Assembly: GCA_021646465.1 (NCBI GenBank) | Contig: SOET01000022.1 | Location: 30,737-74,855 of the forward strand | Origin: Candidatus Kuenenia hertensis | GTDB lineage: Bacteria > Planctomycetota > Brocadiia > Brocadiales > Brocadiaceae | Direction of reading: 5' to 3' | DNA: 44,119 bases | Shown: positions 11,774 through 35,476 of the stretch, in pieces | Layout: every line of letters starts with the position of its first letter | Numbering within the stretch: the first letter of the stretch is position 1 | Made by a program: the position numbers and the translations under genes | The notes under the pieces: model-generated | Databases searched by the model: none | Seen by the model: the letters and a program-made list of their open reading frames with translations, nothing else | Told to the model about the DNA's origin: nothing

Positions 11774-12250
11774 GGTAATCCGGTTATGGTGTTATCATTG
11801 TTTCGTCTATTTCTCTTTATTGGGAATAGTAAAGTAAAATGCCTATCCGTGGTAACAATTTAGTTTTTTTGAAAAAATCTGCCTATAAGTTGTATGATTT
11901 GTAGTGGCAAGGGCGTGTACTACAAGCCGTTTCGAAAATTCACCCCTTTAATATCAAGGGTTTCACGGCGATTTATGACAAAAAATAACCGTTTTTCGGC
12001 GCGAATTGCGAAAGTCGGGGTATTTTATGCTTTGTTGTAAAAACCATTTTATCGTGGAAGCCAGTCTATCAGCAATAAGTGTCATTTTTTTTTGTCGGGA
12101 AAAGTATTTTTCATATTATATTAAATTATATAGTGTTAATTTATTATCAGCATTGATCGTTTTGAGTGTTGAGAAAAGTTTACTTAATCGACTCATTTCA
12201 ATTTTATTCTGTCTTTGCTACAAAGATTTATTTACGTGTTTCTTCGAGTA
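11774..12250. other. Intergenic stretch, no supported gene
   Basis: About 480 bases lie between the convergent NHL gene and the minus-strand GT2. An 84-codon frame at 12006-12260 has no ribosome site, no recognisable domain and a composition like noncoding AT-rich DNA, so I do not call it. A hairpin with 7-bp arms (TTGTAGT/ACTACAA) lies at about 11900-11926. Its left arm, GTAGTGGCAA, resembles the arm of the perfect palindrome at 13382. I see no clear factor-independent terminator. Confidence 0.5.
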
Positions 12251-13294: not shown

Positions 13295-13381
13295 ACATGT
13301 TGTCCTGTTGAGTGGTTTAAAATCTGATAAATAGTAACACCGTAGCTTTTTTGAAAAATTCTGACAATGACGGCATTTGTA

Positions 13382-13417
13382 AACTGTAGCGGCAATTCAT
13401 GAATTGCCGCTACAGTT
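13382..13417. repeat. 36-bp perfect palindrome
   Basis: The left half, AACTGTAGCGGCAATTCA, is followed immediately by its exact reverse complement, giving an uninterrupted 36-base palindrome with no loop. It lies in the 207-base gap between two minus-strand genes and is not followed by a T run on the minus strand. It looks more like a REP-type or mobile palindromic repeat than a terminator. Confidence 0.85.
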
Positions 13418-13501
13418 GATCACTAAAAAATTTTAAGCTCATATCGTTTTTAAAAAACTAAAGTGTTACGATAAATGTAGTTTGCTCCGAAACAAGTTTT
13501 T

Positions 13502-16330
13502 TTATGTTGTGCGCTGCAGATTTCCTATCTTGTCCTTGAATCGCAATTGTTTTCTGTTAAGAAATTTTATAAAGTATTTAGTCGGATCTTTGTAATATAT
13601 ACGTAATACGTCCTCAAAATACTGTTTAGCTCTTTTTCCCCGTTCAATTGCCTCATCTATTGGCGTTTCAGCTATCTTCAAAAATTCTTCCGCCATTTCT
13701 TGTTCCGATAGCCTTGCAGAAATTCTAAAGATAAACGACATATCATAATAATCTTCTCCTGTGATCAAACTATCGCTGATAACGACAGGAACCCTTTCGA
13801 AGAAACATGCTTCATAAAATCGTACACTATCATTGCCAGTACCACGCGGGCATAAAGCAAATAAATGTTTTTGCATGAATTGTTCGTATTTCTTTACTTC
13901 CGGGTGGCCTGTTTTTGTCCTGCCGAACCATTGCTGGTTTATAATATACTCACATTTTACATTCGACAATTTCAATGCTTTTGCAACTTTTAACCTGAAA
14001 AGCCCTTTATCCAAACACCCTTTAAACCCAAAAGTTTTGTCCTTAGGCAAAGAAAACCGTTCATGCCTGCTTTTTAGCATGTCAACAAGGAGGTATGAGA
14101 ACGGAGGTCTGGCACACACATTCCAATCTTTAATCGACCTGCATGATGCATTGCCTGAAATATTAATTATTGAGTTTTTTAACCAAGGATGAATCTGGTC
14201 AACATAAAGATTATGCCAGTCCCCCTCAATGTCTATAATATGCCTTTCTTCGTTACCATTGAAATAGGAAAATTTGTTTATGTCAAATTCATTTATTGTA
14301 CTATCGGTTGTTTGTCCCATATAAAAAAATTCTGCATCTTCGGGAGAAGCCTTTTCTATCCATGTAGATATCCCTTGTCTGCTTAGCGGCGCTGTATTTG
14401 CAAAATACGGATTATCATCACAATTTACCGGTTTTGCATCAGGATAAATAAACACCTTTAATTTTTGTGTTTGTAGTTCTTTATGCCTGGAATTTTGTAC
14501 AGATGATTTTGTTTCAGTTTTTACGGCAATTGTTTTGTTATTTTCTTCAATAGTATTCTTTTTTTTCTGATCAGCTCTTTTTTGTAAATTGAGATGATAA
14601 AAAACCGTTCTCCAAAAAATCATGTTATTGTATAATGATGCAGCTTTTTGGTATCCATTTTTTGCAATTGCCATACGTTCATCGCCGTGTTCCAAATAAT
14701 ATTTTGCCTTATTTACTAAATCTTTTATATCAGTAAAAGGAACATAATCCATCATAGGTTGAAATAAACCGGCGGTTTCCGGGTTGTCTTCCTCCAATAA
14801 CATTGCGCCTGAAAGCGTGATTTCCATAACTCTTCCTACTAGTTGTTTATGATTAGAAAATGATCCTGAAAAATTCACAGCTATTTTCGAATGCCTAAAC
14901 GTGCTTGCATATTCTTCCAATGACAATCTTCTCTCATCTTTTCCTCCTCCAGGATAATAAAAACCGATGTTTGCTGCTTTTAATGAGTCAATTGCTTCCC
15001 GTCTGCCGATTTTAGCAGTTCGGCCTGCAAAACTTATAGGAATATCCCTGACATCGTCAGAAGTATAATATATTCTTGGATCCTGTGGTGTCCACAACAA
15101 TAAATATTTTTCCGGATTTGAAACTTTGTGAAAAAAGACGCTTGTATCGACTACAATATTCAAATCGACGCATTCTTGAATGTTTTCTGCGTTTTTAATG
15201 TGAACGTCCCATACGTGATCCCACCATACAGCGACTATCGGTATTTTCATTTTCTGGTTTATGAGACGAAGTGTTTCCAATTTTGGATTATATGGCAATC
15301 CATGTTGCCAATCCAAAAATAATAAGTTTGGCTTGCTTTCCGTGCATAACCTTAGTAAAGCATAGTCCCCGGTTTCTTTGTGGCAAATAAAATGATCGTC
15401 GAAATGAAATCTATCCTGAGTTGTTAATCCAGTAGCTTCTAACGAGCCCCATAAATTATGTGATTGATTGACAAGTCCTATTTCAGGTTTGCCATCAACC
15501 CATTTAGGGCCCACGAACAAAATATGTGGTTTGAGTCCTTTTTCTATAATTGTGTATGGGTCTTCAGGCTCTTTATGAAAATCGGAAGATAAATGTATTT
15601 TGCAGTACAGAAATCGTTCTTGTGCATCAGAATTTTCGGGATATATCCTCAGACAATTCTCATAATTAGTGATTGCCTTTTCCCAATTTTTTTGTTCCTG
15701 ATAGAACTTGCCCAATTGGTACCATCCTTCAGAATATTCCGGAGCCAAACATGTTGCCTCTGTAAAAAACTCCATGGCATCTTTATCTTTTTTTAGCGCT
15801 AAACAACCATTTCCGAGTATAACCAACTCCTCGGCGTTATTTATATGCCTTGATTTTTCTTTATTATCAATTGCTTCCTGAACAATCTTAATTAACGATT
15901 TATTTGCTTTTTCAAAATTAACATCGATTTTCAGGCATTTAATTAACATTAAAATGGCATCTTTCAGTTTTTCCTGCATCAAATAAAGTTTTGCAAGGCT
16001 GTAAGTCGGTTCTAAATAATCGGGGTCTAATGTTAACGCTTTTTTTAAGTTCTTTTCAGCATCTTCAAATTGTCCCTTGCCATGATATAAAACTCCAAGA
16101 TTATTATAAACAGAGGCATCTTCTGGTTTCAATTCTGCTGCCTTTTCAAAATCCGAAATTGCCTCATCCTGTTTATTTTGCAGTAAATAAAAAGATGCTC
16201 TGTTATAGTAAGCAATCACTTCCCGGGGATTTAATGCAATAGCTTTTTCATAATGCAGGTAAGCGTCTTCAAAATTTCCATTTTTTTCAGCCTGGCTTGC
16301 ATGATCAATTATCTTGTTATACTCTTCCAT
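13502..16330 (-). CDS. TPR - CgeB-like glycosyltransferase - exostosin (GT47-like) fusion
   Basis: This 942-residue protein has three parts. Residues 1-235 are TPRs, with typical AYYNRASFYLLQNKQDEAI and ASVYNNLGVLYHGKGQFEDA repeats. Residues about 270-585 form a CgeB/Glyco_trans_1_2 type GT-B glycosyltransferase, with HILFVGPKWVDGKPEIGL at the start and VNFSGSFSNHKQLVGRVMEI plus an acidic GAMLLEEDNPE stretch near its end. Residues about 620-925 form an exostosin-like domain starting KLKVFIYPDAKP, with LCPRGTGNDSVRFYEACFFE and VPVVISDS, the usual GT47 C-terminal signature. It therefore probably carries two glycosyl-transfer activities on one TPR scaffold. It lies 80 bases downstream of the TPR-FkbM gene in the same direction. 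No signal peptide is seen, so it is expected in the cytoplasm. Confidence 0.82.
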   Translation of the reverse strand: MEEYNKIIDHASQAEKNGNFEDAYLHYEKAIALNPREVIAYYNRASFYLLQNKQDEAISDFEKAAELKPEDASVYNNLGVLYHGKGQFEDAEKNLKKALTLDPDYLEPTYSLAKLYLMQEKLKDAILMLIKCLKIDVNFEKANKSLIKIVQEAIDNKEKSRHINNAEELVILGNGCLALKKDKDAMEFFTEATCLAPEYSEGWYQLGKFYQEQKNWEKAITNYENCLRIYPENSDAQERFLYCKIHLSSDFHKEPEDPYTIIEKGLKPHILFVGPKWVDGKPEIGLVNQSHNLWGSLEATGLTTQDRFHFDDHFICHKETGDYALLRLCTESKPNLLFLDWQHGLPYNPKLETLRLINQKMKIPIVAVWWDHVWDVHIKNAENIQECVDLNIVVDTSVFFHKVSNPEKYLLLWTPQDPRIYYTSDDVRDIPISFAGRTAKIGRREAIDSLKAANIGFYYPGGGKDERRLSLEEYASTFRHSKIAVNFSGSFSNHKQLVGRVMEITLSGAMLLEEDNPETAGLFQPMMDYVPFTDIKDLVNKAKYYLEHGDERMAIAKNGYQKAASLYNNMIFWRTVFYHLNLQKRADQKKKNTIEENNKTIAVKTETKSSVQNSRHKELQTQKLKVFIYPDAKPVNCDDNPYFANTAPLSRQGISTWIEKASPEDAEFFYMGQTTDSTINEFDINKFSYFNGNEERHIIDIEGDWHNLYVDQIHPWLKNSIINISGNASCRSIKDWNVCARPPFSYLLVDMLKSRHERFSLPKDKTFGFKGCLDKGLFRLKVAKALKLSNVKCEYIINQQWFGRTKTGHPEVKKYEQFMQKHLFALCPRGTGNDSVRFYEACFFERVPVVISDSLITGEDYYDMSFIFRISARLSEQEMAEEFLKIAETPIDEAIERGKRAKQYFEDVLRIYYKDPTKYFIKFLNRKQLRFKDKIGNLQRTT

Positions 16331-16410
16331 TGCATTATTCCATTATTCAATCAGGATTGTTAATTAAAATGTTTTCTACAATATTTGTTTTCGATGTTGC
16401 ATCACTGAAA

Positions 16411-17637
16411 TCATTTTATCCAATTAGCTATTGCGAGGTAATTTGAATTTGCAAATATTTCACAATGTTCTGAGTAGTTTTGAACAGGGCAGAGTCCATC
16501 CTGTAAGATTCTATAAATGTTATACTTGGGTGAAAGAAAATCGTAGTAGTCTTTAAAAAAAACTTTTAAGTAAATATTGGGATGGTTAAATTCAAAATGA
16601 ATGAAATCTATTGAATCTGAATTGATCATATTCCGGGCACTTTTTAAGATATTTAATTCACAGCCTTCCACATCCATTTTTAAATAATCGATATGATCTA
16701 TATGATGTTGTTTGCAAAAGTCATCAAGGCGCACAAAGTTTACACGTTCTGTATAGTCCATTGCTTTTTTTCTTACATTTTCAGAACACACTTCAAGCCC
16801 GCTGGATGAAGTGTGTCCATACATAGTTACTGTTTCGTTCTCTAAACCTAAGGCAATATTGAGCAATTTTGCGTTTGGAAATTCTTTCAATGCGTGCTGT
16901 AATTCTTTAAAAATAAGAATGCTTGGCTCAAAACAATAAACAGTTACATTTTGATAGAAATGTTCGAATACTTTTAATGAAAATTCACCCTTATTTGCGC
17001 CAACATCAAAAACAATGGAATTCTTCTCTGGTGCGATATGTTTCGCGACATGTTGGATTGCAAATAATTCACCGCTGATATGGATATTATCGACGATTCC
17101 TCCGTAGTTCATTCCTGTTATTGAATAGAGATATAACCATTCAAAAAAGGGTTGAAAAGCAATTTTTCCAAGAATATCTTTATTTGATTTTAACAGCTTT
17201 GCTATTCCATCTAATATGTTATTGACATCACAATGTTGTGAAGAAATATTAAAAGCGGTATAAATTCTGCTTTGGAGTAATTTTGCGTGTGCCTCCTGCA
17301 AGTTTGGATTAATTGCAATGGCCCTTTCAAATGCAGAAATAGCCTTTTCATGTTTACCGTTATTCTGCAAAATATTACCCAGATGTAGCCATGTATTATC
17401 TCTGTTTGGTGCCAGACGTACGGCTTCAGAAAAACTCTTTACTGCTTCTGTGTATAATCCAACCAAATTACAACACTCTCCCAATTTTATATAATCTTCG
17501 GCATTATACTTTTTTAAACTTTCCCTGTTTTTTATTTGACCCAGAACAATATCTCTTAATTGTTCTCTTGATTCCTCCTCTTTCCCTTCTTTCAACATTT
17601 GATAAGCTCGTTCAATAAGATCTTTATATTTATGCAT
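16411..17637 (-). CDS. TPR - FkbM family methyltransferase
   Basis: This 408-residue protein has TPRs at about residues 45-125 (AEDYIKLGECCNLVGLYTEA, DNTWLHLGNILQNNGKHEKA). A helical linker follows, then a FkbM-type SAM methyltransferase domain at about residues 205-385. SAM-binding motif I, IVFDVGANKGEF, is at residues 208-219. The acidic loop YCFEPS, the RLDDF segment and DYLKMDVEGCE follow, all typical of FkbM. FkbM enzymes O-methylate sugars or other hydroxyls, so this one probably methylates a glycan. The ATG is preceded by AAAGGA at good spacing. It starts 32 bases after the end of the frameshifted TPR-methyltransferase in the same direction. Confidence 0.88.
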   Translation of the reverse strand: MHKYKDLIERAYQMLKEGKEEESREQLRDIVLGQIKNRESLKKYNAEDYIKLGECCNLVGLYTEAVKSFSEAVRLAPNRDNTWLHLGNILQNNGKHEKAISAFERAIAINPNLQEAHAKLLQSRIYTAFNISSQHCDVNNILDGIAKLLKSNKDILGKIAFQPFFEWLYLYSITGMNYGGIVDNIHISGELFAIQHVAKHIAPEKNSIVFDVGANKGEFSLKVFEHFYQNVTVYCFEPSILIFKELQHALKEFPNAKLLNIALGLENETVTMYGHTSSSGLEVCSENVRKKAMDYTERVNFVRLDDFCKQHHIDHIDYLKMDVEGCELNILKSARNMINSDSIDFIHFEFNHPNIYLKVFFKDYYDFLSPKYNIYRILQDGLCPVQNYSEHCEIFANSNYLAIANWIK

Positions 17638-17669
17638 ATAATCCTTTTGGAAAATTTATATGTTAGAAA

Positions 17670-18694
17670 TTAAAAAGAATTTATATTGATTTTGCACAAT
17701 ACGGGAAAACACCTTTTACTGCGTGCTGCTTGTTTTTTTGTAGAGTATAAATTTACTTGAGGAATTTCCTCATGATCTATACCGATTATTTCCAGAGGTT
17801 CGAATCCGTAACTCTGTAACCACCAATGTAAACCATTCAGATTAAATTCATAAAAATGTAATTCTTCATAATATTTAATTAAACCAGTGCCATATTTATT
17901 GGGAACAGCTATTAATAGCAAGCCGTTTAAACGTAATATTTCTTTGCAGGTATCTAAAGTAAGTTGGGGGTCAAATACGTGTTCTAAAGAATGCCACAGG
18001 ACAACAGCATCATAATAATTTTTTGGCAGATTAATTTCTTCCAAAAAGCCATATCTTATATCTAAACCATATTTTTCCTTGCACCACAAAATCGCGTTTA
18101 TACTGATCTCATTGCCATCTACTATCCAATTATGATCATTTGCAATCTTCATGAAGAAACCGGCGGCAGATCCTACATCAAATAGTTTTCCGGTTTAATA
18201 TATTTTTCCACTATAGATAACTGATATTTTGCATCACGCAATCTGGATGCTTCTTGTACTTTATCGAAACAAGCGCTAAGCATAAATCCTTTGAGTTGCT
18301 CACGTACTACTTCCTTCAAAAGGTTTTCATTTAATGTAATATAACACTCATCAAGCCTTTTCTTGGCTTTATCCATCAATAAGTCAATATTTAAACATCT
18401 TAAAAAAGCAGTAATAGCCAAAAAAACCTTTCTCTGTTTAAGAAAAACGTTTCCGAGTCCGTAAAGCGCTTCAGTAGAATTATGATCATGCGATATAGCT
18501 TTTTTAAAATTTTTTTCAGCGCCTTTTAGATTTCCTAATAAATAGTTTAATACCCCTAAATTTTGGAAAACTGTGTATTCGCGAGGATTCAATGCAGCTA
18601 TATTTTCAAACTGCGTTATTGCTTCATTCAAATTGCCTTGTGTGTAATAGTAATTAGCCAAATTGAAGTGATCGTCAATTGATTTTTTATTCAT
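17670..18694 (-). pseudogene. TPR - SAM methyltransferase broken by a single frameshift
   Basis: Two adjacent frames, 18694-18173 (TPRs) and 18152-17670 (methyltransferase lacking its N-terminus), form one gene if one base is restored near 18185-18195. The first frame reads VEKYIKPENYLM and stops. The neighbouring frame across the same bases reads GKLFDVGSAAGFFMKIANDH, a perfect SAM motif I, continuing into LWHSLEHVFDP (motif II region) and a Methyltransf_23-type C-terminus. Adding one C to CCGGAAAAC would give KPGKLFDVGS. The restored product of about 340 residues would have the same TPR-plus-methyltransferase plan as the next gene. It is either a decayed gene, a sequencing error in an A/C run, or a programmed shift. 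It is the first gene downstream of the candidate minus-strand promoter. Confidence 0.75.
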
Positions 18695-19514: not shown

Positions 19515-22500
19515 ATGAATAAACAATTAGCACTGGATTATTTTAAAAAGGCTGAAGATTGCAAAGTAAAGGGTTGTATTGAAGATGCTGTATCATATTA
19601 TGAGAAGTCACTTGAATATGATGACAGTTTTATTAGTGCCTACTATAACCTGGCAATTTCATACTATAAATTGGGCTTGTTCTCTGATGCAATTAATACG
19701 TTTGAAAAATTAATAGAGTTAAACCATGCAGATGCCTCTGTTTATAATAATATTGGCACACTATGTTTTAAGAATAACAATTTGGTTGATGCAATAAAGT
19801 ATTTTGAATTAGCCTTGTCTATCGAACCGAATTATGAAGAGGCAAAAAAAAACCTGGGAAATATACAAAAAAGATTAGGGGAAACATCAACAATTTTCCC
19901 GGAGAAACGATCTGTCAGCATCCATGAGCAAAAACAAAATATTGGTTTTGTTTCTGTGTGGTATGAACGTGGCCAGGCGTATGTAACGAAAGCAATCCGT
20001 GATGCATTAAGTGAGCAATATAATACCTTTATATTTGCTCGAAATGGAGGAACTCTTAATAATCCCTTAATAGAAACTACGGGTGAATGGCATGTTCCAA
20101 ATCTTGTGACGTATTCTAAATACAAGATTCCCAAAGAAATTTTAGTTGATTGGGTAAAATCTCATTGTATAACGGCTGTGTTTTTTAATGAAGAGTATAA
20201 CTTTGAATTAATAGAAGAAATAAGAAAACTCGGCGTTAAAACTATCGGTTATTACATTTGGGAATGGTTTAATCCCGACTATGTAAAACGATGTAATCTG
20301 GTCTATGATAAAATTATATGCCCTACAAAGGCGTGTTACGAAAAATTTAAAAGTTTAGGATTAGATAATATTGAATATGTTAGTTGGGGAATTGATTTAA
20401 ATCAATTTAAACCGGGGGAAACAAACGGGAATACTAAGGTACGATTTTTCCATCCTGCCGGATGGGGTGGTTTACATGCACGGAGAGGAACACAATTTGT
20501 TATAGACGCATTTGCAAAACTGAATAATTCAAAATCGGAATTGCTCGTTCATACGCAGTTTCATCAAGATGCAGCTACAATAGATAATTATTATCAGCAT
20601 TTGCTAAATGAACGAAATATAAAGATACAGTATGGTACAGTTCCACGCGAAGAAATCATACGAATGTATCAGGAAGCTGATGTTGCGATACTTCCTTCAA
20701 AGTGGGAAGGGTTAGGCTTGACTTTCCTTGAATCGATTGCCTGCGGTTTGCCAATTATTACAGTGGATGCTCCGCCCATGAATGAGTTTGTTATTCATGG
20801 AGAAACGGGCTTTCTCTGCCGTGTTGCTGAACGGCAAAAGTACGATGGTATTTTTGTTGATGGAGTACATGTAGATTTGAATGATATGGCTGAAAAGATG
20901 CGAATTATATCCGAAGATAACGCCTTACGTAAGAAAATGAGAGGGCGTATTCTCTCAACGAGAGTTTCAAACTGGGATTTTAAGAGCTTTCAACAAAAAC
21001 TTTTGAAAGTGTTAATGGAATTAATACCTGAATCAAACCGTAAAGGAGTGAATGTTGCTGCCGGAACAGGAGCAATGAGATCAATATATACCCTACGAAT
21101 GATTGATTCAAGTAAGACATTTGGAGTTGGACAGGAAATAATATCGGATAGGAATGATATTTTGCAACAGTTTGCTAATTGCGCGCTGGATATCCATCGG
21201 GTGCAAAATATTATTGAATCTCGTTTAGACCATATTAAAGAATTTACCGGCATTTCAGATGCTCCATTGGAGAAGTTAGTCGAAAATGCAGGTAAGATTG
21301 TTGAGGAGGAATGGCATAGGCATATTCAGAGTAAACGTCCAATAGATGAATATTATCGTAATGCACCTAATGAGGTCATATTTAGCTATGCAAACATGGA
21401 TGGGTCAGGTTCATTTTGGAGATTGGAATATATCTTAAGGTTACTCTCCGTTTTTATTTCAAAGGATGCCGCATTTCTCGACTTCGGCGCCGGGATTGGA
21501 GAAACGGGAATATATTTTTCTGGCAGGTGCAAAGTGACAACGTATGACCTGGCGAGTCGTACACAGGATTTTGCAAAATATCATGCTGAGAAATTGGGTG
21601 CAAAGATTAATTTTATGAGCAATCTTGAGGATATCAGAGAGAATACATTTAATATTATATCTGCGCAGGATGTTTTAGAACATATAGAGAATCCTATGCG
21701 CATTGTTGAAAGGCTTTGCAGTGCCTTGAAACCAGGCGGATATTTTGTAACGTCAGGATTCTGGTTTAACCCAAATGTTACTGGGCACCTGGCATCAAAT
21801 ATACAATATCGCGATACATGGCTGGATGATTTTAAGAATATGGGACTCAAATATACTTGTACGTTCAGAGGGAGTAATTGGGCAATCGCTGTTTTTCAAA
21901 AACCCAATCCTGGTATTGGGAAAAGAGAGATATTCAGTATTAGTTCCGACTGGATGCCTAAAGGCAGGCTTAAGCTGATATCAAAGAAGTATTCAGGATG
22001 TCAGCTTATCCGGGAGGATGATGGCAGGCAGTTCGTTGTAAAGGACAATTACAAAGAACCACTTGTTGTTCACCTGGTTGGGGCACGTTGGTCTAATCAT
22101 CCATGGGGGATGGAGAACGAAATATATAGAGAGCTTGAGAAATTTGGCGCTACCATTATAGATACAGATTTTAGAGGGGATTTTCAGCACCTGCCTGAAT
22201 TGTTACGGCAAGAGGCGCATGTATTGTTTGTTATAAAGGGAAATGGTATTCCACCTGAACTAATTATGAATTCACCGTGTAAGACTATTCTCTGGTATCA
22301 GGATGATGTATTTGCAACTGATCATGCATCAAAACAAATTTCATATAATGGATGGGCATTCGATACAGTCTATTCTTTCGATAAAATGGCACTGGATAAA
22401 TATCGTGAACTTGGGGTGAAAACCCCCCGATGGTTACCTCTCGCCATGAACCCCGAGGTGCATAGAAAAATGTATCTTATGAAGAAAGTACACGAGGTTT

Positions 22501-25500
22501 CGTTTGTGGGTAACATGTATCCTAATAGAAAGGCATTACTCGAAAGATTGGCAAAGCGATTTAATCTTTTTGTGAAAAGTGCATTTATGGATGAAATGGT
22601 AGAAATATTTAACAAATCAAAAATTGTACTGAATTTAGGAATAGGCCCAACGGGCATACAGAGCCGGGTATTTGAAGCGATGGGGTGTGGAAGTTTTCTG
22701 ATTACAAATGAAATTCCACACGAGTCACGTTTATTTGAAGACCGAAAACATCTAGTCTATTTTAATGATAAGAACATTGAGGAATTAATTGCGTATTATC
22801 TTAAGAATGAAGAAGAACGAGAGACTATAGCACTCGCTGGTTATAGAGAAGTACAGGCAAAACACACTTATGAGCAACGCATAAAAAAAATATTTTGCGA
22901 CATATTTCAAACTGAAGATGATTGCCGGCGGAGCGATACGAAAAGAAAGCATATGTATTCTACACATGGTGTGGAAAATGTTACTACGCCTGCATTATCA
23001 ATAGTTATTGCTACATGTAATAGAAAACTATTTCTCCAAAAGTGTATTGATAGTTTACTAAAAAACAGTGAACAAAGAATAGAGATTGTAGTTGTTACTG
23101 ATGAATGTGTTGATGATACACGAAAATGGTTAGATGAAATAAGTACAAAATATACGAATATCGTTCATATACCTAATAAAACACACGAAGGGTTGCATAA
23201 AAGTATAAATAGAGGAATAACTTTTACACAAGGGCAATACATTGGGCTTCTTAATGACGATATAGAGGTTACAAAAGGATGGGATTCTGCCCTGATTTCT
23301 CTTTTAGAAAGTAACCCGGAATACGGAGCGGCGGTACCTTTGGTTTTAGACGAAAACGGGTTTATAAGTTCTATGGGTTTAATAGAGGGGATAGTAAGTG
23401 CAAAACATCCTTCTATAAAACCAGTTCATGGTATAAGAGGATGGGTAGGGAGAGGGAAAAAACGAGATCAGGCGCCGGAAAGCACTCAGGTTCGTGAGGT
23501 AGAGTATGGATGCTATTTAATTGTGAAAAAAGAAGTGTTAGAAAAAGTAAATGGAATCGCCGAAGACCTTGGCAAATATTGTGTTGATGCAGATTTCGGT
23601 TTAAAAATACGCCATGCGGGATACAAAAATATGTATTGCCCAACAAGTATAGTGATTGATCATGGTTTAGACTTTGAATCAAAAAAAACTACCGAAAATA
23701 ATTTACGTAAAAGCCAGGAGCTATTTTTTAGGAAATGGTTGGCTTTTTATGTAGATGAAAACTATGGAGTCAAAATTAATAAAAAATTTCGAATTTTTAT
23801 TGCTTCAACTGTTGATAAAACAACTTTATTTCAACAAGTAAAAAACCACGTAAATTCTTTGTTGAAACAACACCACATAATAAATTCTGTTGTTTGTAAT
23901 GAAATTGCGATGAAAATGGATATTGATGTAATGAACCATATGTTCTTGGAATCTGTTATTTCTTTCCAACCGGATATATTAATTTTATTTGGCGGAAATG
24001 ATATTTACGCTCATACATTGAGGGATCTCAAAAGGAAATTAAACATAAAAATCATATCATGGTGGCACCCTGAGATTAATCACGATCCTTTGATAATACC
24101 GGATTGGGCTATTCAATTAAATAAAGAAACCGATGTGTGCATTTTTCCTAATGCTACTGTTGATTATGTAAAGAATGCTGAAAGAAAAGGAGTGAAATGT
24201 GGGTGTTTTCTGGATAAAAACGAACTCCTTGCAGATAAGCTGCCGCTTATTTTAAATGGAGCAATAGGGGACAGATTGCTTATTTATCAAAACGAAGTAA
24301 AAGAATTTTATTTTAGCTCTACAGAAAGAAAACTGTTGGAAAATTCAAAATTTTTAATAGATAAAGGGATAGGCATTGTAGCAGAACATCCTTTGATTAG
24401 CGTGATACGATCAAACCTGCTGTATTTGGAGGCATACATTATTCTTTCTGATTATTACATAAATAACAAAATGTATTTGAAAGCAAAAAAAATATTGCAT
24501 GCTGCGCTGAATGCCGGGTTAAAATCTCCGGAAATAGATAAGCGATTAGGAATGGTTTTTTACCAACTTGGTGAACTTGAAAAAGCGAAACCAATGATTA
24601 GAAGCGTCATTAAAAACGGATGTAAAGATATAAAACCATACAATGTTTTAGGGCAAATTTATATACGGGAAGAAAATCTTAAAGAAACCGAAAAAATATT
24701 AAAGAAAAGTTTGGAAGTCCATAAAAATAATCCTGTTAGTTTGCTAAACCTTGGAAAAATCTATAGAGAACAAAATAAAATAGATGAGTCTATTTTTTGT
24801 TTTCTGGAAGCAAAAAATGTTGATTATGATCTTAAATATAAAGACGATATTCGCGAGAATCTTGAGCATTTATATTCCAGGAAGGTGCTGGATATAAAAG
24901 ATTCTGGTATCAAAGTGACGATTTTTGTGCTTTCATTCAACAGGGCGAAATATATGGAGAGGGCGTTGTATTTATTCAGCAAACAAACATTTCCGCGAAA
25001 AGCCTTTGAAATAATAATTGTTGATAGCAGTACCGATAATACGAAAGAGGTCATTGGCGATGCAGTTAAAAGATATGGCTTTAATATCAGATATTTCTTT
25101 GTTCCTCCCGAAGGACCCGATCCAAACACAAGCTTGACTAATTTTGGGTTTAAACAGGCAAAGGGAGATATTGTTTTGTGGTCGCATCCGGAAATATTAT
25201 TTACTGAACGTATGATTGAGGAATTTTATAAACCGCACGTATATGAGGATAAATTGTGGGTAAGTGGCAGAATGGGTGTTGTATTAACAAGGGAGGAACA
25301 GGGCAAAATAGATCAGGTATGGAATAACGACCTCGATTACATTTTTGCAAATTATAATATCCGCAGGGAAGTTTATCGGTTGGGATACAAGTATTGGCTG
25401 CCATTGCTGCTTTCGTTTAAAAAGGATACGTATCTTAAAATAGGCGGTGTTACCGAGGATCTGCCTGTGCCTCGCCATACAGATTTAGATTTATTTTTCC

Positions 25501-25745
25501 GTATGCTGGCTATTGGGTTTTCAATCCATAATCCGCCAGGATTTCAGGGCATTCATCAGTGGCATCCGCCAATGGAAGAACGGGGTAAAGAACTTTTGCC
25601 GGTAATGGAGAAGAACAGGCAAATTGTATATGGTTGGAGAAGGGCATTTCTCCAGGGCGAATTGGAAGCGGAACAATATGCGATGAGAAATGAGGGTCAT
25701 GAGATTGGTATAGTTCCTAACATTAAAGAGGAAACAATCAATTGA
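19515..25745 (+). CDS. Giant multi-domain TPR-glycosyltransferase-methyltransferase protein
   Basis: This 2076-residue protein reads as a string of glycan enzymes. TPRs occupy residues 1-125. A GT4-type GT-B domain spans about 140-510, with EGLGLTFLESIACGLPIIT starting at residue 398. A SAM methyltransferase spans about 640-780 (DFGAGIGETG, then SAQDVLEHIENP). A CgeB-like GT-B domain spans about 850-1130 (PLVVHLVGARWSNHPWGMEN, FVGNMYPNRKALLERL, SRVFEAMGCGSFLITNE). A GT2 domain spans about 1155-1410 (LSIVIATCNRKLFLQKCIDS, GLLNDDIEV). A Rossmann-like segment of unclear type at 1425-1600 and a second TPR block at about 1630-1790 follow. A C-terminal GT2 spans 1799-2060 (VTIFVLSFNRAKYMERAL). No signal or membrane segment is seen. 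The ATG lacks a strong ribosome site. It heads the plus-strand sugar cluster and could add and methylate several residues in sequence. Confidence 0.85.
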   Translation: MNKQLALDYFKKAEDCKVKGCIEDAVSYYEKSLEYDDSFISAYYNLAISYYKLGLFSDAINTFEKLIELNHADASVYNNIGTLCFKNNNLVDAIKYFELALSIEPNYEEAKKNLGNIQKRLGETSTIFPEKRSVSIHEQKQNIGFVSVWYERGQAYVTKAIRDALSEQYNTFIFARNGGTLNNPLIETTGEWHVPNLVTYSKYKIPKEILVDWVKSHCITAVFFNEEYNFELIEEIRKLGVKTIGYYIWEWFNPDYVKRCNLVYDKIICPTKACYEKFKSLGLDNIEYVSWGIDLNQFKPGETNGNTKVRFFHPAGWGGLHARRGTQFVIDAFAKLNNSKSELLVHTQFHQDAATIDNYYQHLLNERNIKIQYGTVPREEIIRMYQEADVAILPSKWEGLGLTFLESIACGLPIITVDAPPMNEFVIHGETGFLCRVAERQKYDGIFVDGVHVDLNDMAEKMRIISEDNALRKKMRGRILSTRVSNWDFKSFQQKLLKVLMELIPESNRKGVNVAAGTGAMRSIYTLRMIDSSKTFGVGQEIISDRNDILQQFANCALDIHRVQNIIESRLDHIKEFTGISDAPLEKLVENAGKIVEEEWHRHIQSKRPIDEYYRNAPNEVIFSYANMDGSGSFWRLEYILRLLSVFISKDAAFLDFGAGIGETGIYFSGRCKVTTYDLASRTQDFAKYHAEKLGAKINFMSNLEDIRENTFNIISAQDVLEHIENPMRIVERLCSALKPGGYFVTSGFWFNPNVTGHLASNIQYRDTWLDDFKNMGLKYTCTFRGSNWAIAVFQKPNPGIGKREIFSISSDWMPKGRLKLISKKYSGCQLIREDDGRQFVVKDNYKEPLVVHLVGARWSNHPWGMENEIYRELEKFGATIIDTDFRGDFQHLPELLRQEAHVLFVIKGNGIPPELIMNSPCKTILWYQDDVFATDHASKQISYNGWAFDTVYSFDKMALDKYRELGVKTPRWLPLAMNPEVHRKMYLMKKVHEVSFVGNMYPNRKALLERLAKRFNLFVKSAFMDEMVEIFNKSKIVLNLGIGPTGIQSRVFEAMGCGSFLITNEIPHESRLFEDRKHLVYFNDKNIEELIAYYLKNEEERETIALAGYREVQAKHTYEQRIKKIFCDIFQTEDDCRRSDTKRKHMYSTHGVENVTTPALSIVIATCNRKLFLQKCIDSLLKNSEQRIEIVVVTDECVDDTRKWLDEISTKYTNIVHIPNKTHEGLHKSINRGITFTQGQYIGLLNDDIEVTKGWDSALISLLESNPEYGAAVPLVLDENGFISSMGLIEGIVSAKHPSIKPVHGIRGWVGRGKKRDQAPESTQVREVEYGCYLIVKKEVLEKVNGIAEDLGKYCVDADFGLKIRHAGYKNMYCPTSIVIDHGLDFESKKTTENNLRKSQELFFRKWLAFYVDENYGVKINKKFRIFIASTVDKTTLFQQVKNHVNSLLKQHHIINSVVCNEIAMKMDIDVMNHMFLESVISFQPDILILFGGNDIYAHTLRDLKRKLNIKIISWWHPEINHDPLIIPDWAIQLNKETDVCIFPNATVDYVKNAERKGVKCGCFLDKNELLADKLPLILNGAIGDRLLIYQNEVKEFYFSSTERKLLENSKFLIDKGIGIVAEHPLISVIRSNLLYLEAYIILSDYYINNKMYLKAKKILHAALNAGLKSPEIDKRLGMVFYQLGELEKAKPMIRSVIKNGCKDIKPYNVLGQIYIREENLKETEKILKKSLEVHKNNPVSLLNLGKIYREQNKIDESIFCFLEAKNVDYDLKYKDDIRENLEHLYSRKVLDIKDSGIKVTIFVLSFNRAKYMERALYLFSKQTFPRKAFEIIIVDSSTDNTKEVIGDAVKRYGFNIRYFFVPPEGPDPNTSLTNFGFKQAKGDIVLWSHPEILFTERMIEEFYKPHVYEDKLWVSGRMGVVLTREEQGKIDQVWNNDLDYIFANYNIRREVYRLGYKYWLPLLLSFKKDTYLKIGGVTEDLPVPRHTDLDLFFRMLAIGFSIHNPPGFQGIHQWHPPMEERGKELLPVMEKNRQIVYGWRRAFLQGELEAEQYAMRNEGHEIGIVPNIKEETIN

Positions 25746-25802
25746 TTGAATTGAAAAATAGTTTGATCTTACGATTGAATTTTATTACGGAGATATTAAT
25801 TT

Positions 25803-26741
25803 ATGTCAAATAATATACTGGTTACCGGAGGGGCGGGCTATCTTGGTTCAGTGTTGGTTCCTGAATTGCTGAAATTAGGGCATATGGTTACAGTTTTGGA
25901 TAATTTTATGTTTGGCCAAAACTCCTTGCTTGAATGTTGTGCGGATAATAATTTTGAAGTTGTTAGGGGAGATACAAGAGATGAAGAACTGCTTAAACGT
26001 CTCCTAAAAAAAGTGGATTATATTATTCCTTTAGCTGCATTGGTGGGAGCTCCTCTTTGTAGCAGAGATAAAATAGGGACAATAACAACTATTAAAGATG
26101 CTGCGGCTTTGCTGGCAAAACTGGCATCAAAAGAGCAGAGGATAATTATTCCAACAACGAACAGTGGTTATGGCATAGGTCAAAAAGATGTATATTGCAC
26201 GGAAGAAACACCGTTAAAACCAATTACTTTATATGGCAGGGCGAAAGTAGAAGCAGAAGCAATTATCCTGGAAAGGGAGAATTCCATAAGTTTCAGACTT
26301 GCAACTGTATTTGGCATGTCACCGCGCATGAGGCTTGATTTACTAGTGAACGATTTTGTTTATAGGGCAGTTAAGGACCGGTTTGTAGTAATCTTTGAAG
26401 GTCATTTTAAAAGAAATTATATTCACATCCGTGATGTGGCAAGGGCATTTATTCATGCTATTGACAATTTCAATACTATGAAAAATGAGCCATACAATGT
26501 CGGGTTGTCCGACGCAAATCTTTCTAAGCTCGAATTATCTGCAGAAATAAAAAAACAATTACCTGATTTTGTATATTTAGAGTCGTCGATAGGTGAAGAT
26601 CCTGATAAAAGGGATTATATAGTATCTAATGAAAAAATAGAAAAAACCGGATTTAAGCCGATGTATACACTGGAAATGGGCATTCGGGAATTGATTAAGG
26701 GATACACGATTATCACCAATAGTAAATATTCAAATGTGTGA
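25803..26741 (+). CDS. NAD-dependent sugar epimerase/dehydratase (extended SDR)
   Basis: This 312-residue extended short-chain dehydrogenase has the Rossmann motif TGGAGYLG near residues 8-15, an acidic cofactor-binding residue in VLDNF, the catalytic region TTNSGYG and the pair Tyr144-x3-Lys148 in LYGRAKVEAE. The C-terminal half contains KRNYIHIRDVARAF and YNVGL, usual for NDP-sugar-acting members. A GGAGAT ribosome site precedes the ATG. It is the first of the small sugar enzymes after the giant transferase. Neighbouring hddA/hddC suggest a GDP-heptose-derived substrate, but the exact reaction (epimerisation, reduction or dehydration) cannot be read from the sequence. A remnant of the tail of a paralogue lies at 35477-35522. 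Confidence 0.82.
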   Translation: MSNNILVTGGAGYLGSVLVPELLKLGHMVTVLDNFMFGQNSLLECCADNNFEVVRGDTRDEELLKRLLKKVDYIIPLAALVGAPLCSRDKIGTITTIKDAAALLAKLASKEQRIIIPTTNSGYGIGQKDVYCTEETPLKPITLYGRAKVEAEAIILERENSISFRLATVFGMSPRMRLDLLVNDFVYRAVKDRFVVIFEGHFKRNYIHIRDVARAFIHAIDNFNTMKNEPYNVGLSDANLSKLELSAEIKKQLPDFVYLESSIGEDPDKRDYIVSNEKIEKTGFKPMYTLEMGIRELIKGYTIITNSKYSNV

Positions 26742-26791
26742 AAGTATGAAGCAAAAGATGAACAAACTTAATAATCCGGGAAAACGAATGA

Positions 26792-27748
26792 ATGGATAAA
26801 ACCAGTAAGATTTATGTTGCAGGGCATTGCGGACTTTTGGGTTCAGCATTGTTGAAGCGATTAAAATCGGAAGGTTATTTAAATATCGTTACGAGATCTC
26901 ATAGATATCTCGATTTAACAAGGCAAGAGGTGGTAGAGAAGTTTTTTAAAAATGAACAACCGGAATATGTGTTTCTCTGTGCCGGACTAACGGGCGGTAT
27001 AATGGCAAACAAAACCTATCCTGCAACTTTTCTGCACACGAATATTGCTATTCAGGATAATGTTTTTGAGGCTTCCTTAAAATATAATGTAAGATATATT
27101 GTTTTTTATGGATCATCGTGTGCCTATCCCAGGAATTGCCCTCAACCTATAAAAGAAGAGTATTTGCTGACGGGAGAAATAGAGCAGACAAGCGAGGCTT
27201 ATGCAATAGCGAAAATTGCCGGAATACTTGCATGCAGGGCATATAACAGTCAATATAATGCGAACAGATTTATAGCTCTTCTACCAAATACGATGTTTGG
27301 GCCAAACGATAATTTTGATGTAAATAGGTCGCATGTCATTCCCTCTTTAATAAGAAAATTCCACGAAGCTAAAGTGAAAAATGAAAGTATTGTTGTCTTA
27401 TGGGGAAGCGGCAATCCGAGGAGAGAGTTTATCTATAGTGAAGATGTTGCTGACGCTTCTGTTTTTGCTGTGAAAAACGCGAAAAGACTTCAAAATACAC
27501 ATTATAATATAGGGTCAGGAATTGATTATTCAATAAAGGAACTTGCTGAGATCATATCAGAAATTGTTGGGTTTAAAGGAGGTATTGAGTGGGATGTTTC
27601 CAAACCAAATGGGGCCCCAAAAAAACTACTGGACAGTACCCATTTCCTGAATATGGGTTGGAAACCATCCACACCACTGGAAGGGGGGTTGAAAATAACT
27701 TATGAGTGCTTTCTGAACCAATGTTGTGTAAGAGGGGGTATGATTTGA
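26792..27748 (+). CDS. GDP-L-fucose synthase-like epimerase/reductase
   Basis: This 318-residue SDR is close to the Fcl/WcaG/ColC group. It has the nucleotide motif GHCGLLGSAL, the active-site stretch GSSCAYPRNCPQPIKEEYLL starting at residue 107 (Ser108/Ser109, Cys110) and Tyr137-x3-Lys141 in EAYAIAKIAG. GDP-fucose synthase uses exactly these Ser, Cys, Tyr and Lys residues to epimerise and reduce GDP-4-keto-6-deoxymannose with NADPH. The same fold serves GDP-colitose synthase and GDP-6-deoxyheptose reductases. With hddA, hddC and a ColD-like gene in the cluster, the last two are more likely than fucose. The stop overlaps the TTG start of the radical SAM gene. A decayed copy of its first 29 codons lies at 36480. 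Confidence 0.85.
   Translation: MDKTSKIYVAGHCGLLGSALLKRLKSEGYLNIVTRSHRYLDLTRQEVVEKFFKNEQPEYVFLCAGLTGGIMANKTYPATFLHTNIAIQDNVFEASLKYNVRYIVFYGSSCAYPRNCPQPIKEEYLLTGEIEQTSEAYAIAKIAGILACRAYNSQYNANRFIALLPNTMFGPNDNFDVNRSHVIPSLIRKFHEAKVKNESIVVLWGSGNPRREFIYSEDVADASVFAVKNAKRLQNTHYNIGSGIDYSIKELAEIISEIVGFKGGIEWDVSKPNGAPKKLLDSTHFLNMGWKPSTPLEGGLKITYECFLNQCCVRGGMI
27731..27738 (+). promoter_or_regulatory. Ribosome binding site fixing a TTG start
   Basis: AGAGGGGG at 27731-27738 sits 6 bases before TTG at 27745-27747, which overlaps the stop (TGA 27746-27748) of the previous gene. The in-frame ATGs at 27706 and 27721 have no such site and would add residues not expected before the SVDVLYIHP start of a B12-type domain. 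Confidence 0.55.
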
Positions 27749-29238
27749 GCGTTGACGTTTTATATATACACCCTGGCAACCACAGGGGAAACTACCAGGA
27801 CCTGGCGAAGGAATTTACTGCCATTGCAACCCCTTCCTGGACGTTACTTCTGGCCAATTACACTAGAAACAAGGGATACAGCACGGCAATATACGATGTA
27901 AACGTAAAAGGCTGGAATGAAAATATTGCAAAAGAAGTAATTACTCACTATAGCCCTGGCCTTGTTGTGATTATGGTATATGGGCATAATCCGTCTGCAT
28001 CAACCCAGACAATGCCCTCCGCTGGTAAAATCGCAAAAGATATTAAAGATCACAACAAAGATGTTCAGGTTCTTATGGGAGGAATTCATCCTTCTGCGTT
28101 ACCGGAATTGACGCTCAAAACAGAATGTATTGATTATATAGCTCAAGGCGAGGGGGCTTATACAATAGAAGGACTTCTACGTTATTTTAAAGGTAAGGAA
28201 GATATTCATACCGTAAAAGGATTATGGTATAAAAATAAAAATTCTATTCAATATACCGTACCCGCGCCGATAATTAGCAATTTAGATGCGGAATTGGACG
28301 GATATGCCTGGGACTTACTTCCTGATCTGATTAACTATAGAGCACATAATATGCATTGTTTTCAGGATTTCGAAAAAAGCGTCAGGGATGATTTTTCAGA
28401 TATCAGAACTCCTTATGTGGCGATGAATACATCACTGGGATGTCCATATTCCTGCCATTACTGCTGTATTAATGCTTTATTTGGAAGGTCAGGGATTCGA
28501 TATTGGTCTTTGGAAAAAGTTGTTTCCTGGATCGATACTTTGGTAAAAGAATATAATGCTAAGAATATAAGATTTGACGATGAACTTTTTATATTATCTC
28601 CGCAAAGAGTAGAAAAATTTTGCGATTTGATTATTGAAAGAAATTACAATTTAAACATTTGGGTATATGGCAGAGTCGATACAATCAAACAATCTCTTCT
28701 CTTAAAACTAAAAAAAGCAGGAATTAATTGGATTTGTCTTGGGATAGAATCTGCAAACGAAAAGGTACGATCAAGTGTAAACAAAAACATAAATAAAGAT
28801 ATAAAAGACATTGTGAAAGAAATACAATCTCATGGTATTTATGTACTTGGAAATTATATGTTTGGTTTGCCGGAAGATACTATGGAAACTATGAAAGAAA
28901 CTTTGGATCAGGCGCTGGAGTTAAATTGTGAATTTGTGAATTTTTATACAGTAATGGCGTATCCTGGTTCTGAATTATATGAGTGGGCATCAAAAAAGGA
29001 CGGTTATTTACCGAAAACATGGGCGGGTTTTTCTCAGCTTGGTTACGATACGCAGCCTTTACCAACGAAATACTTGTCGGCTAGAAACGTGCTAAAGTTT
29101 CGGGATGAAGCTTTTTTTAAATATTATGCTAATCCTGATTATATGATGATGGTTGAGAAGAGATTTGGAGACAAGGTAAAGAAACATCTTGAGAAAATGC
29201 TAAATATAAATGTTAAAAGAAGAATTTTAGACGATTAA
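27745..29238 (+). CDS. B12-binding-domain radical SAM protein
   Basis: The protein has 497 residues from the TTG at 27745 (510 from the upstream ATG). The N-terminal part to about residue 180 has the Rossmann-like pattern of a cobalamin-binding domain: VLYIHPG, a VIMVYGHNPSA stretch, VLMGGIHPSALPE and DYIAQGEG. The radical SAM core follows, with the cluster motif CPYSCHYC at Cys233, Cys237 and Cys240, then IRFDDELF, GRVDTI, WICLGIESANE and NYMFGLPEDT. The canonical DxHxxG cobalamin ligand motif is not obvious, so the B12 domain may bind without that histidine. Such enzymes methylate or rearrange unactivated carbons. Here it sits between two sugar SDRs and a transketolase, so a sugar-modifying role is plausible but unproven. 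Confidence 0.85.
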   Translation: MSVDVLYIHPGNHRGNYQDLAKEFTAIATPSWTLLLANYTRNKGYSTAIYDVNVKGWNENIAKEVITHYSPGLVVIMVYGHNPSASTQTMPSAGKIAKDIKDHNKDVQVLMGGIHPSALPELTLKTECIDYIAQGEGAYTIEGLLRYFKGKEDIHTVKGLWYKNKNSIQYTVPAPIISNLDAELDGYAWDLLPDLINYRAHNMHCFQDFEKSVRDDFSDIRTPYVAMNTSLGCPYSCHYCCINALFGRSGIRYWSLEKVVSWIDTLVKEYNAKNIRFDDELFILSPQRVEKFCDLIIERNYNLNIWVYGRVDTIKQSLLLKLKKAGINWICLGIESANEKVRSSVNKNINKDIKDIVKEIQSHGIYVLGNYMFGLPEDTMETMKETLDQALELNCEFVNFYTVMAYPGSELYEWASKKDGYLPKTWAGFSQLGYDTQPLPTKYLSARNVLKFRDEAFFKYYANPDYMMMVEKRFGDKVKKHLEKMLNINVKRRILDD

Positions 29239-29261
29239 TCTTAAATAAGGAGCGCGGCTGT

Positions 29262-30098
29262 ATGAACAAGCTAATTCCAATGCTTAAAAAAAAGTCGTAT
29301 GAGATTAGAAAATCCATGCTGGAAATGTGCATAAAAGCTGAAACAGGACATGTAACATCATCGCTGTCATGTATTGATATTTTAGTTGCGTTGTATTATG
29401 GCAATATTTTAAATCATATGCCGCAAGACCCGTCTTGTGATAAAAGAGACAGATTTATTTTAAGCAAAGGACAGGCAAGCCCGGCCCTCTATGCCATCCT
29501 TGCCGATGCAGGTTATTACAAGAAAAGTGAGTTGGATAAATTTGCACAGAAAGGCGGAATGTTTGGAGTTCATTTGCAAAACGATGTACCCGGAGTGGAA
29601 ATTACATCAGGTTCACTGGGGCTTGGGCTTGGAATTGCTGCGGGCATTGCTCTGGGAGCAAAAATGGACAGAGCTCTTTATTTGGTATTTGCACTTCTTG
29701 GGGATGGGGAATGTTATGAAGGTTCTATTTGGGAAACGGCTATGTTTGCAAGCCATAATAGATTAAACAACCTTATCGCTATTATTGATAGAAATTATCT
29801 GTGTGTAACCGACTTTACTGAAAATCTCATTGCGTTAGAACCAATAGAGGATAAATGGAAATCGTTTGGATGGGATACACAAAGAATAGATGGTCACTCA
29901 TTTGAGGATATTCTGTCTGCATTGAGTAACTTACGTTCTCGACGATCTTTGAAACCTTTAGTAATTATTGCCGATACCACAAAAGGTGAAGGTGTGGAAC
30001 ATGTTTCTAATAATCCTTTATGGCATGGGCTTGCGCCAAAAGGAAAAGATGCGGAATTCGCAAGACAATGTTTGAATAGGAGATACGCTAATGAGTAA
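29262..30098 (+). CDS. Transketolase-like protein, N-terminal (ThDP-binding) subunit
   Basis: This 278-residue protein corresponds to the first domain of transketolase. It has SLSCIDILVALYYG, RFILSKGQASPALYA, GSLGLGLGIAAGIALG and the thiamine diphosphate motif GDGECYEGSIWETAMFASHN starting at residue 147. The pyrimidine-binding half is encoded separately by the next gene, which overlaps by 8 bases, so a heterotetramer is expected. Split transketolases are common in sugar and secondary-metabolite clusters. Next to heptose enzymes it could make sedoheptulose 7-phosphate, the entry point of NDP-heptose synthesis, or transfer a two-carbon unit onto a keto sugar to form a branched sugar. A GGAG ribosome site lies upstream of the ATG. 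Confidence 0.9.
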   Translation: MNKLIPMLKKKSYEIRKSMLEMCIKAETGHVTSSLSCIDILVALYYGNILNHMPQDPSCDKRDRFILSKGQASPALYAILADAGYYKKSELDKFAQKGGMFGVHLQNDVPGVEITSGSLGLGLGIAAGIALGAKMDRALYLVFALLGDGECYEGSIWETAMFASHNRLNNLIAIIDRNYLCVTDFTENLIALEPIEDKWKSFGWDTQRIDGHSFEDILSALSNLRSRRSLKPLVIIADTTKGEGVEHVSNNPLWHGLAPKGKDAEFARQCLNRRYANE

Positions 30099-31026
30099 TA
30101 TATCGCAAAGAGATGCTTTTTGGAAGAGAATCTACGAAATTGCAAAAGAACAACGTAACCTTGTTGTTATTTCCGCCGATATGGGTGCTCCTGCACTTGA
30201 TAATTTTAGAAGAGATTTACCTTCTCAATTTATTAATGTTGGAATTGCAGAACAAAATGCGTTGCTTATCGCCGCAGGTCTCTGTATGACCGGAAAGAAG
30301 GTATTTGTTTATGCAATTGCGCCTTTTTTAATTTTACGATGTCTTGAACAAACAAGAGTATTAAATGCCGTAATGAATAACCCTATTACACTTGTTGGAG
30401 TCGGGGCTGGATTTGGCTATGAAGACTCGGGTCCTACTCACCATATTACTGAAGATATTGCCATTATGAGAGCTTTGCCAAGGATTGAAATCTGCAGTAT
30501 AACTGACAGTGTTATGGCAAAGGCATTTGCGGATATTTCATATAATATGAAAACGACAAATTATGTTAGACTGGACAGGCTCTTATTTCCCGAAGTATAC
30601 CATTCTGATTCAAATTTTTCCGAAGGGGTATCGGTTTTAAAAGAAAGTAAAGATGCTTGCATTGTTGCAACTGGAAGTATGGTACACACAGCGCTGGAAA
30701 TAGCACATCGGCTAGAAAAGAAAAAGATCAATGTTGGTGTTATTGATGTATACAAAATCCCGATAAATACAGATACTTTCATTAAAAAAATCAGAAAGTT
30801 AAAAAAATTAATAAGCTTGGAGGAACATTTCTTGCCGGGAGGTCTTGGTAGTGCAATTTGCGAAATATTAAACGATCACAATATTTTTATTCCTGTAAAA
30901 CGATTAGGTCTGCCTGTTAAAAAACACTATTGTTATAAATATGGTGGAAGAGAAGTTATAAGAGGATATTACGGAATTGATAAACGAAGTATAGAAAAAG
31001 AAATCATCAATTTTATTTCAAATTAA
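30091..31026 (+). CDS. Transketolase-like protein, C-terminal subunit
   Basis: This 311-residue protein carries the pyrimidine and C-terminal transketolase domains. FINVGIAEQNALLIAAGLCM, with the cofactor-activating Glu54, and GPTHHITEDIAIMRALPRI are both visible in the first half. The C-terminal half has CIVATGSMVHTALEIA and a LEEHFLPGGLGSAI region. It overlaps the N-terminal subunit gene by 8 bases, indicating coupled translation. Together the two make one transketolase-like enzyme of about 590 residues, somewhat shorter than housekeeping transketolase (about 660) and closer to the DXS-related split forms. The substrates are not determinable from sequence. The pathway context suggests C7 sugar chemistry. 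Confidence 0.9.
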   Translation: MSNISQRDAFWKRIYEIAKEQRNLVVISADMGAPALDNFRRDLPSQFINVGIAEQNALLIAAGLCMTGKKVFVYAIAPFLILRCLEQTRVLNAVMNNPITLVGVGAGFGYEDSGPTHHITEDIAIMRALPRIEICSITDSVMAKAFADISYNMKTTNYVRLDRLLFPEVYHSDSNFSEGVSVLKESKDACIVATGSMVHTALEIAHRLEKKKINVGVIDVYKIPINTDTFIKKIRKLKKLISLEEHFLPGGLGSAICEILNDHNIFIPVKRLGLPVKKHYCYKYGGREVIRGYYGIDKRSIEKEIINFISN

Positions 31027-32301: not shown

Positions 32302-32313
32302 TGATATTGATAC

Positions 32314-33021: not shown

Positions 33022-33095
33022 TCGGTATATTTAAAAATCAGATAAAAACAATTTTACCAAGAGTAATTTATGTTTATTTGAGGAAAACAAATTTT

Positions 33096-35474: not shown

Positions 35475-35476
35475 AT

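Follow-up and report, generated by a model that had tools for sequence, protein, structure and literature searches.

What does a bacterium assemble with a single open reading frame (ORF) in which several glycosyltransferase (GT) modules are joined to a methyltransferase, and on which acceptor? The question is raised by a stretch of 44,119 nucleotides of Candidatus Kuenenia hertensis (contig SOET01000022.1, positions 30,737 to 74,855), which was analysed as a whole and is called the window, and in which an ORF of 2076 residues extends from 19515 to 25745 on the forward strand (coordinates are those of the window unless indicated otherwise). The window forms the right-hand end of contig C89 of a draft genome (4.17 Mb, 89 contigs) that encodes hydrazine synthase alpha (PF18582, 91 bits; 0 of 14 control genomes) and thus derives from an anammox planctomycete. 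As argued below from gene content and gene order, the ORF fairly probably encodes a cytosolic, fused glycan-assembly enzyme that would build a short methylated O-glycan directly on flagellin.

The ORF has an ATG start and runs in one open frame without internal stop, and it is present in one full copy in the source genome. All named domains exceed the curated Pfam cut-offs and bear out the preliminary description, which had read at least four GT domains, one methyltransferase and two TPR blocks in this frame. The order of the modules, all on the forward strand, is TPR, GT4, class I methyltransferase, CgeB-type GT, GT2, a segment X that resembles half a GT-B domain, TPR and GT2. The N-terminal TPR block (residues 1-121, 19515-19877; Pfam TPR_1/2 match at 1-116) may bind the acceptor protein, as the TPR of FlmG binds flagellin (PMC7591256). 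The GT4 module, of GT-B fold (residues 126-505, 19890-21029; PF00534/PF13692, Pfam GT group 1 core at 318-438), is 79% identical to its counterpart in the same-genus genome G019 and carries the motif E398-x7-E406. Some 140 residues without domain match precede the core of the class I S-adenosylmethionine methyltransferase (residues 641-748, 21435-21758; Methyltransf_23 PF13489, 6e-12, and PF08241, 1e-9), with the motifs DFGAGIGETG at 656 and QDVLEH at 718. Next come the CgeB-type GT-B module (residues 828-1140, 21996-22934; Pfam match at 950-1126, DUF3880 PF12996 and Glyco_trans_1_2 PF13524, 3e-30), with VFEAMGCG at 1052 and no structurally solved relatives retrieved by sequence, and the first GT2 module (residues 1157-1423, 22983-23783; PF00535 at 1162-1342), with NDD at 1247 and DAD (DADFGL) at 1358. 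Behind segment X lie the second TPR block (residues 1604-1789, 24324-24881; Pfam match at ~1605-1790, model helices with a predicted local distance difference test score, pLDDT, of ~80-88) and the second GT2 module (residues 1798-2076, 24906-25742; PF00535 match at ~1802-1915, 8e-12).

Of the five transferase modules, four (GT4, the methyltransferase, CgeB and the first GT2) have intact catalytic motifs; the fifth, the second GT2, has HPE at 1891-1893 (SHPE from 1890) where relatives have a DXD-type motif, and it retains TDLDL at 1989. The homologue in genome G008, from another genus, reads THPE at the equivalent position, and GT2 modules with (S/T)HPE for DXD (here and at 8542-9396 of locus L043) are 65% identical across the two genera. 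A membrane segment was not found in the 2076-residue protein, the highest 19-residue hydropathy being 1.66 and located within a GT core. Like the fused GT-methyltransferase enzymes of the WsaE/A064R kind, the protein combines at least two GT domains with a methyltransferase on a single chain.

The homologue in G008 (1814 residues) has the order TPR-GT4-CgeB-GT2-X-TPR-GT2, without a methyltransferase, and is 41, 61, 73, 52, 40, 39 and 65% identical to the window protein for these modules, respectively; the catalytic modules are therefore the most conserved (52-73% vs 39-41% for TPR and 40% for X). Within the one bacterial family five arrangements were recovered: i) separate genes, GT4 and CgeB being adjacent in G020, G006 and others; ii) TPR-GT4-methyltransferase-CgeB proteins of ~940-983 residues (G019, G009, G011 and G014); iii) the G008 form; iv) the form of the window; and v) a TPR-CgeB-CgeB protein (G024). 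In every case where GT4 and CgeB were mapped as neighbours, fused or separate, GT4 came first. The slot between the two is occupied by a Methyltransf_11-type enzyme in the four TPR-GT4-methyltransferase-CgeB proteins and by Methyltransf_23 in the window, without detectable similarity between them, and no second independent example of the window insertion was encountered. The neighbouring TPR-methyltransferase gene was considered as the source of the inserted methyltransferase, and this was rejected because no similarity was found. The gene is proposed to have arisen by fusion of neighbouring genes.

Segment X (residues 1425-1570, 23787-24224, forward strand) lies in a region (residues 1424-1665) without any Pfam match. 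Carriers could be identified with confidence only for the window and G008 among 62 genomes of the order and 392 of the phylum, further matches being weak (1 of 62 and 3 of 392, respectively). Among the weak matches are two CgeB-type GTs, L065 and L067, each with DUF3880 and Glyco_trans_1_2, and X aligns to the region N-terminal of their donor domain (E 1e-6 and 3e-6). The link to CgeB comes from the phylum search alone, since a profile shared with the CgeB set of the same family was unsupported (hhalign, two sequences, probability 0.2%). Modelled alone (four sequences), X folds as a single Rossmann domain (pLDDT 73.8, predicted template modelling score 0.76), with the streptococcal glycosyltransferase Gtf3 as top Foldseek match (E 3e-4) and VIA-align Z-scores of 10.7-13 to GT-B enzymes; receiver domains also score Z ~10, so that the fold resembles GT-B without being specific to it. 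A C-terminal donor-binding Rossmann domain was not found for X, and TPR helices begin shortly after it. A two-sequence model of the whole C-terminal half (pLDDT 42) was too poor for the GTs, and only two features were taken from it, the TPR block and X's beta-alpha pattern. Because a Rossmann fold like that of GT-B N-terminal domains is followed by TPR helices in place of the donor half, X is most simply read as an orphan GT-B N-terminal half minus its donor-binding half, which agrees with the earlier suggestion of a degenerate GT for the segment at about 1425-1600, and it is probably a binding module.

The functional assignment draws on the association with flagellin. Homologues of the N-terminal half (E below 1e-60; in G024 the match is the CgeB module) were found in 20 of 33 family genomes, and the GT2-TPR gene at 38587 has homologues in those same 20. 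All 20 carriers encode flagellin, and neither the enzyme nor the GT2-TPR gene occurs in the nine family genomes without flagellin (Fisher p 1.9e-5, uncorrected for shared descent). Outside the genus of the window, the distance from GT4/CgeB to flagellin is 5.5-16 kb in all ten genomes that have both on one contig; the chance expectation for such proximity is ~2.4% per genome, with the reservation that the genomes are related by descent. In those sister genera the GT2-TPR genes lie between GT4/CgeB and flagellin, a few hundred bases from the latter, and in G008 GT2-TPR, flagellin and FliD are grouped together (Pfam; L055). The genus of the window has kept the order of GT4, CgeB and two GT2-TPR genes although its flagellins lie elsewhere. 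A role in flagellin glycosylation is favoured because the parts of the enzyme occur in relatives as separate genes next to the flagellin gene, and the surface protein that the preliminary description had named as target, without choosing one, is more likely flagellin in view of this linkage and co-occurrence in relatives.

The proposed mechanism is one in which flagellin would be glycosylated by the soluble enzyme prior to export. As in FlmG, the acceptor protein would be held by the TPR blocks; GT4 would act ahead of CgeB, since that order is kept in separate genes and in fusions alike; the methyltransferase would act on a sugar close to the GT4/CgeB step, and the GT2 modules would lengthen the chain; X would serve as a non-catalytic domain that binds acceptor or chain; and the adjacent operon would supply unusual GDP-sugars as some of the donors. 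A succession of GT4, methylation, CgeB and GT2 is suggested by the conserved order of genes and modules and by A064R, where the order along the chain is the order of action, and it is plausible that domain order corresponds to sugar order.

Several observations weigh against an enzyme that acts on flagellin in this manner. The flagellins of the window's own genome are encoded on C34, C62 and C12 and none on C89, and in the same-genus genome G020 the nearest flagellin is ~95 kb away; GT genes thus occur in the flagellin locus, as in a flagellin glycosylation island, in the sister genera and not in this genome. Four flagellin-positive genomes (G005, G021, G022 and G032) lack the enzyme. The second GT2, without DXD, may be inactive. 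G019 has kept the downstream operon while missing the C-terminal modules, so that operon and modules are not strictly linked. Finally, another target is at hand: the S-layer protein of Kuenenia bears an O-glycan of six sugars, among them a methylated N-acetylhexosamine and, putatively, a dimethylated deoxyhexose (PMC5088730). Either acceptor makes a methylated product reasonable, as the flagellin glycan of Pseudomonas syringae contains an internal methylated deoxyhexose (PMC3927599) and the Kuenenia S-layer O-glycan is methylated too.

A serious rival, although less likely than not, is that the methyltransferase caps the chain in the style of WsaE or Klebsiella O7, with the methyl group at the chain end and a module order that does not mirror the sugar order; it would fit either acceptor. 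Fusions of GTs with a terminating methyltransferase are on record (PMC2943079; PMC11231755), and the methyltransferase is dispensable, to judge from G008. On the other hand, the same slot between GT4 and CgeB holds a methyltransferase in the window and in four relatives, an unrelated enzyme in the latter, and this occupation by unrelated methyltransferases fits a methylation step between GT4 and CgeB; internal methyl sugars as such do exist in flagellin glycans (PMC3927599).

It is also conceivable, if doubtful, that the fusion merely fixes stoichiometry, that the modules serve different chains, and that neither the second GT2 nor X is more than a dead remnant. The HPE in place of DXD, the half-sized X and the fastest divergence in TPR and X would agree with this. 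Against it, the second GT2 is 65% identical to G008, more than the 52% of the canonical first GT2, which points to a retained function. Moreover, some GT-A enzymes bind the metal through DXH or are active without metal.

The opposite extreme is a true assembly line, in which the TPR blocks would keep flagellin bound while GT4, methyltransferase, CgeB and GT2 act in module order, X would hold the growing chain, and new glycans would arise when modules are exchanged in frame along with donor-sugar genes, as in modular synthases. We consider this unlikely in its full form. The earlier assembly-line proposal is partly supported: several transferases and a methyltransferase are joined in one chain, a methyltransferase lies between GT4 and CgeB, and GT4 constantly precedes CgeB. 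An order of sugar addition that mirrors the module order, and an internal methyl group, are hypothetical, and the proposal is weakened by the last GT2 without DXD and by the G008 enzyme without methyltransferase. To the preliminary description are to be added the missing DXD of the terminal GT2, the adjacent sugar-nucleotide operon and the link to flagellin in relatives.

Also unlikely, in our view, is a role in S-layer or exopolysaccharide assembly, in which a lipid-linked or soluble oligosaccharide would end up on the S-layer protein or in the matrix instead of on flagellin. The methylated Kuenenia S-layer glycan, the position of the locus away from flagellin in the window genome and the precedent of WsaE, whose methyltransferase and two GTs serve an S-layer glycan (PMC2943079), all speak in its favour. 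Against it stand the complete absence of the enzyme from the nine flagellin-less family genomes and the flagellin linkage in 10 of 10 measurable sister-genus genomes. Nor did the Pfam-scanned ORFs of the window (those of at least 100 residues) include any flippase, ABC exporter, initiating phosphotransferase or O-antigen-ligase-type gene, the nearest membrane GT being a PMT_2/PA14 protein at 13 kb from the large ORF. An assembly artefact that joined separate genes, a misassembly that the preliminary description had allowed for, is very improbable: the draft state (89 contigs) and the break of identity to G019 within the gene would permit it, but the frame is open throughout, residues 463-505 are nearer to G008 than to G019, and in G008, which is an independent genome from another genus and has the same module order minus the methyltransferase, a single ORF likewise spans CgeB to the last GT2.

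The break with G019 is informative for the origin of the enzyme that we favour as a flagellin glycan synthase. Nucleotide identity (blastn synteny, sliding identity) is ~82-83% up to base 20901, within GT4, and ~87% again from 25809, just inside the epimerase gene, which delimits an unlike stretch at 20902-25808 (forward strand). Between these edges the window contains the remainder of the large ORF only, and G019 has another C-terminal half together with six genes (oxidoreductase, B12 radical SAM, acyltransferase, aminotransferase and two CgeB-TPR). Since another gene set occupies the space from the interior of GT4 to the epimerase, whole modules appear to have been exchanged, and an exchange of cassettes with one edge inside the gene would be the parsimonious account. 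Residues 463-505, just past the break, are identical to G008 at 14 of 43 positions vs 8 of 41 for G019. The alternative cassette (L038, 12982-20972) consists of a Gfo/Idh oxidoreductase, a B12 radical SAM protein, a hexapeptide acyltransferase, a DegT aminotransferase and two CgeB-TPR proteins.

Various known systems share part of this architecture. FlmG of Caulobacter (PMC7591256) combines an N-terminal TPR and a GT-B-fold GT in one soluble protein that acts on flagellin in the cytoplasm, but it has 596 residues, one GT module and one sugar, compared to four GT modules, a methyltransferase and a half-domain here. WsaE of the Geobacillus stearothermophilus S-layer glycan (PMC2943079) likewise joins a methyltransferase and two GT modules in a soluble polypeptide; there the methyltransferase is N-terminal and capping, the polymer is lipid-linked and exported by an ABC system, and TPR, a GT4-CgeB order or a link to flagellin have not been described. 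A064R of chlorovirus PBCV-1 (PMC9614988), with GT, GT and methyltransferase acting in positional order along one chain, differs by its 638 residues, three modules, viral capsid N-glycan and absence of TPR, and ORF6 of Klebsiella O7 (PMC11231755), with a methyltransferase and two GT2 modules with a spacer, by its coiled-coil ruler, methyl-phosphate terminator and O-antigen export by an ABC transporter. The flagellin glycosylation islands of Geobacillus (PMC5109656) and P. syringae (PMC3927599) contain GT2/GT4, methyltransferase and sugar-nucleotide genes near flagellin and yield methylated flagellin glycans; unlike the mostly separate genes of those islands, the enzymes are fused here and lie apart from flagellin in this genome. 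Each ingredient has precedents, namely fused GTs, fusions of GT and methyltransferase, and glycosylation islands for flagellin; new are the number of modules, the half-GT, the reuse of one slot by different methyltransferases and the exchange boundary within a gene.

The GT fusions from literature that were compared contain two or three transferases, against a seven-module enzyme here. Across related species one glycosylation locus takes the form of separate genes, two-GT fusions or the seven-module enzyme, with methyltransferases swapped in a fixed slot, and a comparison of flagellin glycans among related anammox bacteria could therefore test whether module order dictates glycan sequence. The locus offers natural recombination points for the engineering of glycan synthases, and it provides a concrete candidate pathway for anammox flagellin glycosylation, on which no paper was found in the literature searched.

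At 57 bp past the large ORF a co-directional run of sugar genes starts (25803-31026, forward strand), which encodes an epimerase, a GDP-fucose-synthase-like protein, a B12 radical SAM protein and a transketolase split in N- and C-terminal parts; it is followed by genes for an HddA-like kinase, an HddC-like guanylyltransferase and a DegT aminotransferase (31195-34268, forward strand). The NCBIfam matches of these donor genes fall under the curated cut-offs and donor substrates are therefore left without assignment; from the gene content, the donors may be GDP-activated heptose-derived or branched sugars. The G008 enzyme is adjoined by the epimerase, the radical SAM and both transketolase genes (4 of the 5), with kinase and guanylyltransferase nearby. 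The succession of B12 radical SAM and split transketolase within the GDP-sugar gene run (27706-31026) could lead to a sugar that is branched or of higher carbon number. That the transketolase operon strictly accompanies the C-terminal modules was not supported, as close transketolase copies occur in G019 and G024, which lack these modules. A promoter scan gave no excess over chance; terminators were slightly above chance and left unused.

Further downstream lie two GT2-TPR genes (37264-40326, forward strand), whose relatives in the sister genera adjoin flagellin. They are separated from the sugar genes (34719-37247) by two Uma2-type nuclease genes and a Polbeta nucleotidyltransferase/HepT pair that is toxin-antitoxin like. 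Upstream, a divergent cluster (12251-18694, reverse strand; Pfam) encodes a GT2-like protein, a TPR-CgeB-GT47-like protein, a TPR-FkbM methyltransferase and a broken TPR-methyltransferase. The latter gene (17670-18694, reverse strand) has an 82-residue in-frame deletion and a frameshift relative to the intact 406-residue copy of G019 (L038), and is 87-91% identical elsewhere. A second modular cluster of the same genome (L039, G000:C25:134500-152000; positions 1619-14370) encodes a 2582-residue protein with sulfotransferase, TylF plus two further methyltransferase domains, GT4, TPR and GT2, and a 1237-residue protein with four GT2 domains and TPR; relatives of both adjoin the large enzyme in G008. 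The left part of the window contains a gene for a thioredoxin-like domain fused to NHL repeats (9743-11773), next to a small multidrug resistance protein gene (9407-9724), and two large PA14-domain proteins (4160-9152, reverse strand), one of which has a PMT_2 membrane domain of the protein O-mannosyltransferase type.

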